Shown in pieces: positions 11,003 to 15,341 of a stretch of DNA of 64,000 nucleotides; position 1 is the first letter of the stretch; each line of letters starts with the position of its first letter. The DNA is from Thermoplasmata archaeon. Lineage in GTDB: Archaea; Thermoplasmatota; Thermoplasmata; Methanomassiliicoccales; Methanomethylophilaceae. The stretch is taken from positions 1 through 64,000 of the forward strand of contig SUST01000001.1 in NCBI GenBank assembly GCA_015063285.1, read 5' to 3'. The position numbers were made by a program, and so were the translations under genes. The notes beneath the pieces are model-generated. The model saw only the letters and a program-made list of their open reading frames with translations, had not been told where the DNA came from and made no database searches.

Positions 11003-11911
11003 ATGAAGATTTGGGAATTCGCGAAGGTAAGTGGCTCGTCCATAAAGGTTGACAACTGGATATCCGATACGATCGGTATCGTAGACGGAGGTTGCGTGTA
11101 CAGCACCCTCTTCAAGCATCCTGCTCATGGACCCAAGGATTACGAGATCATGCTCTCGATGTTCCCCCAGGAGAACTACCGTACCCTCACGCACATCACG
11201 ATGTACATGGACGACGTTCCCGGATCCAGTGCGCAGGCCGCCCATTTCCTCGCCGAGAAGGAGATCAACATCCTGAACTCCGTCTCGCTGAACGGCATTT
11301 CCGACACGGTCATCGTGTGGAAGCTCATGGCGGATATGAACTTCGCCGGAGAAGGGGAGCTCATACTCGAGCAGTTCAGGGCATTGAAGGCGGCGAACGA
11401 CCCCTCTGTATCGAAGATCAAGAGGATCGAGCTGAAACCCGCGGACATCGGAAGGCTATTCAAGGGTAAGGTGGATGAGACCGGAAAGGAAGAGGTCAGG
11501 CGCGGATATCCCATCACCATCGAGAACGGATGCTTCGACATCGGAAAGGTATACGGAGACCTCCTGCCCAACATCGACGGGAAGAATGTGCTGATCACCA
11601 TGGATGCGGACTCATGGATCTGCTCCATTACACTTTTCAAAGAGGAGACCAAGCTCGTGAAGGTCGGTCTCGAGATCCCCGACTGCCCCGGAAGCATCAC
11701 GGACTCCCTCGGAGTGCTAGCCGACTGGAACGTCAATCTCATATCAGTGTTCAGCAAGGTCAAGATCTGCTACGAGACCATGAGTCTCGAACTTGTGATG
11801 GACGTCGGCAAGAGCAACAAGACGATCCCGGAGATCAAGGAGCTCCTGCCGAAGGAGCTGGAAAAGCTCAACGGCATTTTCACTCTCAAAGAGTTCACAG
11901 AACTCGCGTGA
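11003..11911 (+). CDS. tandem ACT-domain protein
   Basis: This 302-residue protein has two ACT-like domains. The first is near residues 60-130 (HITMYMDDVPGSSAQAAHFL, then INILNSVSLNG) and the second near 215-295 (LVKVGLEIPDCPGSITDSL, then VNLISVFSKV). Both show the glycine and proline turn before the first helix (VPGSS and CPGS) used for ligand binding in ACT domains. No catalytic domain is attached, so a sensing or regulatory role is inferred. It is the first gene of a tight plus-strand cluster; the next gene starts 4 bases after its stop. A TATA-like stretch (ataagttatatga, about 10955-10967) lies upstream. Confidence 0.65.
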   Translation: MKIWEFAKVSGSSIKVDNWISDTIGIVDGGCVYSTLFKHPAHGPKDYEIMLSMFPQENYRTLTHITMYMDDVPGSSAQAAHFLAEKEINILNSVSLNGISDTVIVWKLMADMNFAGEGELILEQFRALKAANDPSVSKIKRIELKPADIGRLFKGKVDETGKEEVRRGYPITIENGCFDIGKVYGDLLPNIDGKNVLITMDADSWICSITLFKEETKLVKVGLEIPDCPGSITDSLGVLADWNVNLISVFSKVKICYETMSLELVMDVGKSNKTIPEIKELLPKELEKLNGIFTLKEFTELA

Positions 11912-11915
11912 TACG

Positions 11916-12749
11916 ATGCGTCTCCCCAAGACCTCCCGTACCTATGCGGCGGAGATCGAAGAACTCATAGTCGGCAGGGGAGACTATGTCATTGGCGGTG
12001 CGAGAAGCCCCGCCTTCCTGGACCTGGACAATGCGAGGCACAGAAGGCCGGTCATCTACGGAGAGGTGCTAGATACACTGGAAGGCTACCCGAAATCCGC
12101 AGCATCCATGTTCTCGGGACGCCAGACCAATCCCGAGGAATGGGCGGTCATGTGGAAGGAACTGGGTGCCGACGGCGTCTGCCTCAGATTAGGGAACAAT
12201 GGAACGCCCGAGATGGTTAAGAGGATCTTGGACAGGACAAGGCTCCCCGTCATGATTTGCGGGGACTCCAAACTTCTGAGGGAAGCAGCCACACTGGTGG
12301 ACGATTCGGTGATGATAATAGGATGCAGGGACAGAGAACAGAGCCTCGAACTGGCTGACTGCCCTAACCGCCACATCATAGTCGCCAAATGCGACGGCAC
12401 ATCGCCCCAGGAGCTATGCAGGGAGATGGCCTCCAAAGGCGCTGAGAGGATCATAGTGGACCTCGGCATTGGTATCATGGGGCCTGCCCTGAAGCGTCTT
12501 CGCGACAGGATAAACGCCTACAGATTGGATGGACTGAGCGGCCAGAAGGATTCGAACCGCAACATAATCTGCGATGTCACCTCCTCCTGGGATGTCCACG
12601 GCGAGGATGTGACTGCGAGGATGGCATCGATGCACGAGGCAACGGTCGCCCTGGCGGTGATGATGTCCGGAGCCGACATGGTGGTCATGAAAGGTCCTGG
12701 AGCGGCAGACATGGCCCGCGTATACGGAGAGGAGTTGGCAGATCTATGA
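11916..12749 (+). CDS. CdhD-like TIM-barrel protein (small CFeSP delta-subunit homologue)
   Basis: A 277-residue protein that resembles the delta subunit of the CO dehydrogenase/acetyl-CoA synthase corrinoid protein (CdhD/AcsD). It has an early GGARSPAF (compare GGExTLPF), then RRPVIYGEVLD, a WKELGADGVCLRLG segment, VMICGDSKLL, and late barrel strands (IIVDLGIGIMG; ADMVVMKGPG). Authentic CdhD is about 400-430 residues long. This version is trimmed and no CODH/ACS genes are in the window. Family members transfer methyl groups between a pterin and a corrinoid protein, and that role is inferred here. It starts 4 bases after the ACT gene and overlaps the CdhE-like gene by 4 bases (ATGA). Confidence 0.55.
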   Translation: MRLPKTSRTYAAEIEELIVGRGDYVIGGARSPAFLDLDNARHRRPVIYGEVLDTLEGYPKSAASMFSGRQTNPEEWAVMWKELGADGVCLRLGNNGTPEMVKRILDRTRLPVMICGDSKLLREAATLVDDSVMIIGCRDREQSLELADCPNRHIIVAKCDGTSPQELCREMASKGAERIIVDLGIGIMGPALKRLRDRINAYRLDGLSGQKDSNRNIICDVTSSWDVHGEDVTARMASMHEATVALAVMMSGADMVVMKGPGAADMARVYGEELADL

Positions 12750-13384
12750 TGGCCCTCACTATCTCCGACATGACCGATGCCAACACGGCATGCAAGAGGA
12801 TCGCAGAGCTCACTAAAAGGAACAGATCATCCAGGATCCCGGATGCGATCTGCATACGCAACGACAGCTTCGCTTCAGAACCGTTCTCATCGCTCGTCCA
12901 GCTGGTGGGTGAATTGTGGGATGGGAACATAATCATCGAATCGGACTATCCTGCGAACATTTCGAAGGCCTTGGTCCACGTCATGGACAGAAGGCCCATC
13001 GTAATCGGGGCCAATCAGGCGAATCTTGAGCAATTCGCGCTCATATCGAAGACCTTCAGTTGTCCTCTCTGCCTCAGCAGCGATAGTCTGGAAGGTCTTC
13101 TTGAACTGGCAGAACAAGCAGAGAAAATGGGGCTGGAGGACCTCATACTCGATCCCGTCCTGAGGAACATGAAGCAGTGCCTGGAGGTCTGCACAGACCT
13201 TAAGAGGTTGCAGGAGAAAGCCCCGATGGCCAGACATCCGATAGCGGTCAGGACCTGGTCCGGAGAGTATGCCATGACCATGGCGCTCGTATCGTTCCTT
13301 GTAGGCGATGCGATAGTCATAGCCGACGACCTGGATGCCGACAGTTGTGAGACGATAGGTGCGCTCATTAGATCCATAAGGTGA
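12746..13384 (+). CDS. CdhE-like TIM-barrel fragment (CFeSP gamma-subunit homologue without Fe-S or corrinoid domains)
   Basis: A 212-residue protein whose second half resembles the barrel of CdhE/AcsC: LEDLILDPV (compare VLDPG), then a conserved ARHPIAVRTWSGEY and SFLVGDAIVIADDLD. Full CdhE is about 450 residues with an N-terminal [4Fe-4S] domain and a C-terminal B12-binding domain. Both are absent here: there is no four-Cys motif, and the protein ends right after the barrel. It overlaps the CdhD-like gene by four bases and is followed 4 bases later by the UAG-containing gene. A pseudo-heterodimer with the CdhD-like protein is inferred. Confidence 0.5.
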   Translation: MMALTISDMTDANTACKRIAELTKRNRSSRIPDAICIRNDSFASEPFSSLVQLVGELWDGNIIIESDYPANISKALVHVMDRRPIVIGANQANLEQFALISKTFSCPLCLSSDSLEGLLELAEQAEKMGLEDLILDPVLRNMKQCLEVCTDLKRLQEKAPMARHPIAVRTWSGEYAMTMALVSFLVGDAIVIADDLDADSCETIGALIRSIR

Positions 13385-13388
13385 GTCC

Positions 13389-13949
13389 ATGCCCATCACC
13401 GGTTTCACCAGGATAGATACGGTCACTGTCAAGGACTAGTTCATGTCAGTGATCCATGTTTCGGATGGCGCGGAATCCGATATTGATAGTATAATATCAA
13501 TATTAGAGAGCGACAAGGGATCGATCGATTATCTCGGCATCTCATCCGATACCGATCCGCTTGCATTCCCCGACCTGTACAAGATGATCAAACAGGTCAG
13601 ACCACGCGGCCTCAAGGTCCTGATCATCACCGATGGCCGGGACCCCGGCAATCTGGACGACCTGATAGGAGCGGGATATACACATACAATAGACCTGCTC
13701 GTCGGTAAGAAGATCACGGATGCTCAGAGGAAGTGCATCTCCATACTGAACGACAACGGATGCAAGTATGCCGTCACGGTGAATGCGTGGGAGCACGATG
13801 AGGATTCCATATCCGCCATCGCGGAGGAATGCGAAGGGTGCTGCATGTTCCTCTTCAGACAGGATAGGCTCAAACCTCTGAACAGGAACGAGATGTCCCC
13901 TCTTACAGCTGCAGCGAAACGCTGCACATGGAATGTCAAGACGATATGA
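13389..13949 (+). CDS. radical-SAM-like protein lacking the cluster cysteines, with in-frame UAG (candidate pyrrolysine)
   Basis: The frame opens at the ATG at 13389, four bases after the previous stop, and runs MPITGFTRIDTVTVKD, TAG (codon 17), then FMSVIHVSDG to the TGA at 13949. It is 186 sense codons if TAG is read through. Both parts match one continuous family, the pyruvate-formate-lyase/anaerobic-RNR activase type of radical SAM protein: a GGFxKxSLIDYPGK-like N-terminus, then DYLGISSDTDPL, LKVLIITDGRDP and IDLLVGKKITDAQ. The CX3CX2C motif that should follow the N-terminus is missing. A restart at the ATG at 13443 would give 168 residues but leaves a 58-base gap unlike the rest of the cluster. 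Function is unknown; it may be a scaffold for the CdhD/CdhE-like pair. Confidence 0.6.
13437..13439 (+). other. in-frame TAG, candidate pyrrolysine codon
   Basis: The TAG is in the same frame as the ATG at 13389 and the long frame from 13443. Upstream and downstream residues both resemble the same protein family. No other gene I could close in this window uses TAG as its stop. Confidence 0.55.
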
Positions 13950-15341
13950 TCACTTGACGAACCTTTCCAGCCTGGCATCGAATGCGGGCTTCAGGCTGCG
14001 GCTGCTCTCGTTGATGAACTTCTGGGGCACGTCAACCTCGTTCTTGAAGCGCTCGATGAGCTTGGGGTCCTTGGTGAACAGACCTGCGGACTGCCCGCAC
14101 TCGCTGTCCTCGATCTCCTGGAAGAATGCATCGACGGAATCGACCACGACGATGTTCAGGATGGGCAGGGCGGTATCGATGTAATTGAGATCGTCCTCTT
14201 TTTCAAGACCTGTGATCGCTATGGGTGCCACATAGTTCTCGGGAAGGTCCTTTGGAACGGGCATGCCCTTGGCGATGGTGAACGGCATGTACTGAAGCGC
14301 AAGGTCCTTGAACCTCTTGGCCTCCGCATCGTTGATGAGAGGTCCGACATGGGTTGTATCGTTGACGGGATCGTCGGTCTTCAGATCCTTCATGTACTCG
14401 GCGAGGAGCTCTGTGAACTTGGTATGGTCCTCGCGAGTAATGATGACCTTGGAGCATGCGAATATGCTCTGTCCGCTGTATGCGAATGCAGAATCCATGA
14501 TGTTCTTCACAGTGGCCTTCATGTCCGACGGCCTGTACACTATGACCGGATTCATTCCCTTGAGCTCGTTGACGAATGACAAATCGTCATCGATCTGCAT
14601 GAACATCAGGTCCTCGAGCCTGTCCCCTCCTCCGGTGGCCACGACTCCGGCGATGCGTGCGTCGTCGACTAACTCGGACGTCGTGTACTCCTTCCTGTCG
14701 ACGATGAGGTTCAGCACTCCGTCGGGAAGCTGGTATTTCTCCATCAGGTTGTAGAATAGATGGATCGGCATGGGACAGAACTTCGAAGGGTTCATCACAA
14801 CTGCGTTTCCAGCTATCATGGCCGCTACCGCGAACGCTACCGGGGATGCGAACGGCGAGTTGGGCGAACTTATGACCGCCCAAACACCCATGGGCTTCCT
14901 CTTTCCGATCTCCGTTGCCTCTTTCAGGATCCTCTCGATCGCTTCGATCGCCGAATCGACCTCTTTCAAGGCATCCTGGCGGATCATTCCGCAGCTCACC
15001 GTTATCGCTGCTGCGTAATGCATCCTTCTGGCCTTTAGGACGCCTGGGATGGCCTGGAAGTATCTGGCCCTCTCCTCTATGGCAATCTTTCCCCAAGATT
15101 CGGCTGCTTTTACCGCTGCTCCGACCGCTTCCTCCATCGTGCCTTCCTCGGGCTCCTGGAAGATACCGTACTCAATTGTGGGATCGATTGGGCTGCATAT
15201 CTTGAACTCACGGCCGGAAGCGACCTTGAGTCCCCCGAAATAGTTGGGGTAATCCTTCTTCTCGGCACTGAGGATAATCATTACCTCGGTCTCATACTGC
15301 CTGCCTTCCTCGGTGGTCTGGAAATCGGGAACGTCTGCCAT
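13950..15341 (-). CDS. aldehyde dehydrogenase superfamily protein without catalytic Cys
   Basis: A 463-residue member of the aldehyde dehydrogenase fold. The barrel-lining Asn (SSPNSPF, N161) and the general-base Glu (NELKGMNP, E259) are present. The nucleophile motif, normally GQxC, reads GQSIFACSK, so the catalytic Cys position (293) is Ile. The cofactor-binding Lys of the KPS motif is Asn (VVMNPSK, N184). The nearest group by pattern is 1-pyrroline-5-carboxylate dehydrogenase-like. Normal oxidation of aldehydes is therefore doubtful; a binding, structural or altered role is inferred. It is single, convergent with the UAG gene (stops adjacent), and has a repeat-bearing upstream region (15402-15490). 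Confidence 0.7.
   Translation of the reverse strand: MADVPDFQTTEEGRQYETEVMIILSAEKKDYPNYFGGLKVASGREFKICSPIDPTIEYGIFQEPEEGTMEEAVGAAVKAAESWGKIAIEERARYFQAIPGVLKARRMHYAAAITVSCGMIRQDALKEVDSAIEAIERILKEATEIGKRKPMGVWAVISSPNSPFASPVAFAVAAMIAGNAVVMNPSKFCPMPIHLFYNLMEKYQLPDGVLNLIVDRKEYTTSELVDDARIAGVVATGGGDRLEDLMFMQIDDDLSFVNELKGMNPVIVYRPSDMKATVKNIMDSAFAYSGQSIFACSKVIITREDHTKFTELLAEYMKDLKTDDPVNDTTHVGPLINDAEAKRFKDLALQYMPFTIAKGMPVPKDLPENYVAPIAITGLEKEDDLNYIDTALPILNIVVVDSVDAFFQEIEDSECGQSAGLFTKDPKLIERFKNEVDVPQKFINESSRSLKPAFDARLERFVK

Follow-up and report, generated by a model that had tools for sequence, protein, structure and literature searches.

Gene layout at the locus

The window (the whole stretch of DNA analysed, 64,000 nucleotides) spans positions 1-64,000 of the forward strand of contig SUST01000001.1 and comes from a gut methanogen, a Thermoplasmata archaeon of the Methanomethylophilaceae (GCA_015063285.1, here G000). 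Two relatives are referred to by label, namely the sister species G011 and a second, non-sister species with the TAG, G008. An ATG at 13389, a TAG at 13437-13439 and a TGA at 13947-13949 lie in a single common frame, which occurs in one copy in the source genome. The features of the locus are as follows.

11003..11911, plus strand: ACT-domain-like protein, first gene of the cluster, conserved
11916..12749, plus strand: CdhD-like protein, 277 aa
12746..13384, plus strand: CdhE-like protein, 212 aa, usual upstream neighbour of the TAG gene
13379..13384, plus strand: Shine-Dalgarno-like GGTGA, overlapping the stop codon of the upstream gene
13389..13949, plus strand: candidate pyrrolysine (Pyl) CDS, the TAG gene; its product, with residue 17 as Pyl, has 186 aa and a radical-SAM-like fold but no Fe-S cysteine motif
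13389..13436, plus strand: 16 codons 5' of the TAG, a conserved N-terminal block; in the model, strand 3-10 and a loop before strand 19-24
13437..13439, plus strand: in-frame TAG, most likely a pyrrolysine codon; orthologues vary here, with AAG in the sister species and TAG in G008
13443..13445, plus strand: alternative ATG two codons 3' of the TAG, rejected as a normal start
13950..15341, minus strand: aldehyde dehydrogenase family protein, convergent neighbour of the TAG gene, conserved

As an earlier note on this DNA had stated, ATG 13389 follows the end of the CdhE-like gene (stop 13384) after four bases, and ATG 13443 would leave a gap of 58 bases. Its remark that every other junction in the cluster is alike was roughly right, the remaining ones being a gap of 4 bases at 11911/11916 and an overlap, also of 4 bases, at 12746-12749. 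A GGTGA(T) of similar kind precedes the starts of most close orthologues. The sister orthologue (L002:1491) has no ATG, GTG or TTG at its start, and an ATT after the GGTGAT site is seemingly used.

Conservation of the codons upstream of the TAG

When contigs were searched with the single protein no match was obtained; with the alignment as query, 21 loci were recovered. Homologues of the TAG gene were present in 30 of the 31 genomes of the genus, to which the protein family is confined among the genomes searched. Matches in other genera of the archaeal family begin only at about residue 17 to 65 and mostly belong to frames longer than 230 codons, which is what true NrdG2-like proteins should look like.

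The 16 codons upstream of the TAG encode a protein block that is conserved in 26 same-genus orthologues (IxxFSRIDTVTVPD-X-FMSV), and over the 27 aligned members, source gene included, the consensus reads MxISxFSRIDTVxxPG, followed by a variable residue and then FLSVV. The residue at the TAG position (X) is K, S, M, R, W, L, V, Q or F, nine in all across the family, the K count including both TAG rows since the program writes TAG as K. In an eight-row codon view of close relatives, X was encoded by AAG (three rows), TAG (two, G000 and G008) and TGG, AGA and GTG (one each), with AAG in G011. At position -2 relative to the TAG, the source gene has lost the conserved proline (TVKD vs TVPD), which could hint at a slight relaxation.

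The orthologue alignment that had been suggested as a check came out in favour of readthrough: the 16 codons are in frame, sense codons stand at the TAG position, and none of the 27 aligned members begins at the position of 13443. This bears on the possibility that the UAG terminates translation and that the protein, whether by direct initiation or by re-initiation (UAG UUC AUG), begins at ATG 13443 and so lacks the first strand. The ATG does lie two codons past the TAG, with an AAGGA 7 bases 5' of it. However, the upstream block is present in all 27 members, whereas Met at this position is found only in the nine closest orthologues, which keep the block too; on these two grounds ATG 13443 was rejected as a normal start. 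In addition, strand 3-10 is part of a confident model and TAG hardly serves as a stop in the source genome, so that we consider termination, with either kind of downstream start, quite improbable.

We scored the upstream block on an orthologue profile built without both TAG genomes (G000 and G008). The source peptide (15 residues after the first Met) reached 31.0 bits, with 41.0 bits for G008 and 38.2 bits for G011, whereas the next best among 127,906 six-frame windows had 10.4 bits, a margin beyond chance. The frame from ATG 13389 through TAG 13437 to the TGA ending at 13949 was confirmed. When neutral drift from the sister sequence was simulated at 0.3 substitutions per site, the source score was kept in 0.35% of cases (P = 0.0035), and stronger drift would likewise rarely preserve it; at 0.1 to 0.2 substitutions per site P was 0.27 to 0.046. 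The dS between G000 and G011 is saturated (about 3.5). On these data, either translation covers the upstream codons or the TAG has arisen very recently, the latter being compatible with the conservation of the block given the simulations at 0.1 to 0.2 substitutions per site. The codon-position test was weak, with 14 codons only (p 0.02 to 0.26).

The frame 3' of the TAG is intact, and relative to G011 its pN is 0.19 vs a pS of 0.74. Both observations speak against a recent nonsense mutation in a gene that is being lost, or an assembly error, as does the TAG at the homologous codon in G008, a separately assembled MAG. Such an origin would fit the fast evolution of the gene, the possible youth of the TAG and the single MAG that represents the source species, but in view of the intact frame and the second genome we regard it as very improbable.

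Pyrrolysine genes and the use of UAG

Of the pylSTBCD set, whose presence the earlier note had proposed to check, pylB, pylC and pylD scored over the cut-off in the source genome, and part of pylS was found as well: contig C13 opens with the last 86 residues of pylS, followed by pylB, pylC and pylD. A search of the draft source genome with a relative's tRNA gave no pylT; pylS, its usual neighbour, is cut at the end of C13. A tRNA-Pyl was identified in G008 (ARAGORN), and an Rfam search of the pyl loci gave no match. Two MtmB genes in the source genome, with one in-frame TAG each, served as positive controls. The claims that UAG is a sense codon here and that pyrrolysine is the residue are supported both by the Pyl genes and by orthologues whose frame is the same and which have K, R, W, V, S, M and others at this position.

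None of the gene calls within the 64 kb window ends in TAG, as had been noted before. TAG statistics covered one 279 kb source contig and samples of two relatives (G008 and G006). The 236 standard-code gene calls on the 279 kb contig stop with TGA (213), TAA (19) or TAG (4), and three of the four TAG ends look like sense codons (two coding-like extensions and one TnpB with the RuvC motif continuing past the TAG), the fourth being doubtful. With TAG read through, the same contig yields five good in-frame cases, the source gene included, and one doubtful case. In G008 (114 kb) TAG ends 6 of 106 calls, several of which extend past it within known domains (those of MtmB, citrate synthase and a pterin-binding enzyme), and in G006 the figure is 1 of 149. 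The frequency of in-frame TAG is about 1 per 13,000 codons. Folding z-scores of -0.36 and -0.02 in both TAG genes gave no support for a downstream, PYLIS-like RNA signal, which agrees with the view that an RNA signal after the UAG is unnecessary (PMC9499178).

Other genes with an in-frame TAG were observed. Three TnpB (IS605-type) copies in G000 (C1:147748-148905, minus strand; C11, about 7000; C20, about 1100; loci L127, L131 and L134) share a TAG that directly follows DRD in the last RuvC motif (DRD[TAG]NAACNIL), where related copies have V or I; judged from these sequences, this mobile-element nuclease seems to depend on Pyl readthrough. In a flavodoxin-ferredoxin protein of G000 (C1:243091-243834; L056:19091-19834) the TAG lies between the two domains. 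Core metabolic genes of G008 (L113:8360-9709, L116:15087-15887 and L116:2995-4968, all on the minus strand) have TAGs in the domains for citrate synthase and pterin binding and in a frame that fuses CbiJ with a TP-methylase, and a YdeI-like protein of G008 (L114:13295-14323, minus strand) has two.

Recurrence of the TAG in two non-sister species

In a tree of four neighbouring genes G000 groups with G011 (support 100/99), and a clade of G000 and G008 was rejected (p-AU 0.00012). This implies that the TAG was gained twice, or once with several losses. What is most unusual about the locus is that TAG recurs at one codon in species that are not sisters, for which the tolerance of the site is the only explanation offered. 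Since in-frame TAG is otherwise so rare, one might suppose that Pyl is functionally favoured and that at least two gains were driven by selection, not drift, for example through a reactive contact with the corrinoid-protein-like neighbours. However, the orthologues show nine different residues at the position, AAG is one step from TAG, codon bias makes a coincidence likelier, and one gain with several losses is an alternative; we therefore regard a favoured Pyl as quite unlikely.

Protein family, fold and cluster

The AlphaFold model of the product (mean pLDDT 93) places strand 3-10 before the TAG and residue 17 in the loop preceding strand 19-24. A Foldseek structure search on the model pointed to a radical SAM barrel fold, the matches being radical SAM enzymes (NifB, DesII, TYW1; best NifB, E 6e-6, TMq 0.68). 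NrdG2 (TIGR02495), the anaerobic ribonucleotide reductase activase, was the sole NCBIfam match at E <= 0.001, with 23.4 bits vs a cut-off of 131, and 17 of the 27 members match it at this threshold; no MtmB, MtbB or MttB family match was found for the product (Pfam, NCBIfam). None of the 27 members has a CX3CX2C-like motif, so that binding of a [4Fe-4S] cluster of the usual type is unlikely. The TAG gene product differs from NrdG2 in this respect as well as in its score and its restriction to one genus. Rather than a radical SAM enzyme, it is probably an NrdG2-derived, genus-restricted relic of the radical SAM fold; the earlier assignment to a PFL-activase-like radical SAM family thus holds for the fold and the NrdG2 ancestry, not for the enzyme.

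The order ACT, CdhD-like, CdhE-like, TAG gene and, on the opposite strand, aldehyde dehydrogenase is conserved in the genus. A CdhD/CdhE-like gene was undetected in L071, L073, L074 and L075, where the TAG-gene orthologue and the ACT-like gene are still there. For the proposed partnership with CdhD/CdhE-like proteins, the link is accordingly one of gene-cluster conservation only, and even this does not hold for certain relatives. We infer that the protein is probably a binding or structural partner in a cluster with corrinoid-protein (CdhD/CdhE)-like genes.

Discussion

We consider it very probable that the in-frame UAG is read as pyrrolysine without an RNA signal, that it derives from a lysine codon and that the change was near neutral. 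Translation would start at ATG 13389 on the GGTGA ribosome-binding site, tRNA-Pyl would decode UAG 13437 as pyrrolysine, with no special RNA signal, and translation would go on to the UGA at 13947. The TAG, in a loop position where many residues are tolerated, most likely goes back to a lysine AAG in which one A became T. It could persist because in this lineage UAG has almost fallen out of use as a stop and the Pyl genes are present. At this site Pyl would probably replace lysine in a near-neutral manner and have no catalytic role.

The genes of the methylamine methyltransferases MtmB, MtbB and MttB likewise contain an in-frame TAG and occur alongside pyl genes. There Pyl is conserved in the active site, whereas its position is variable in the TAG gene family. 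Archaea that read all TAG codons as Pyl have reportedly been described in a 2025 paper.

According to a 2024 review Pyl is exclusive to a few methyltransferases (PMC11363022). The earlier note had held a non-methyltransferase Pyl protein to be new, which was overstated: such proteins were predicted earlier in the order, and more cases occur in the source genome and a relative. For 'Ca. Methanomethylophilus alvus', 16 predicted non-methyltransferase Pyl proteins and 1.6% TAG stops were given (Borrel 2014, PMC4153887). Those candidates resemble ours in belonging to the same order, in having an in-frame TAG in ordinary genes and Pyl-free homologues, and in the low use of TAG stops; the TAG gene is unrecognisable among the 16, and here, unlike in that set, two non-sister species have TAG at one and the same codon. 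Pyl in tRNA-His guanylyltransferase, a different protein and likewise no methyltransferase, was credited to neutral evolution (Heinemann 2009, as cited in PMC4153887).

The TAG gene is one of several in-frame-TAG genes in the lineage and adds to the already known non-methyltransferase Pyl candidates. Genes of this kind are truncated or shortened by standard gene calling. Together with the citrate-synthase-domain, pterin-binding, cobalamin-synthesis and TnpB cases, it indicates that these gut methanogens as a group use UAG as a rare sense codon, in which case ordinary proteins would depend on the supply of pyrrolysine.
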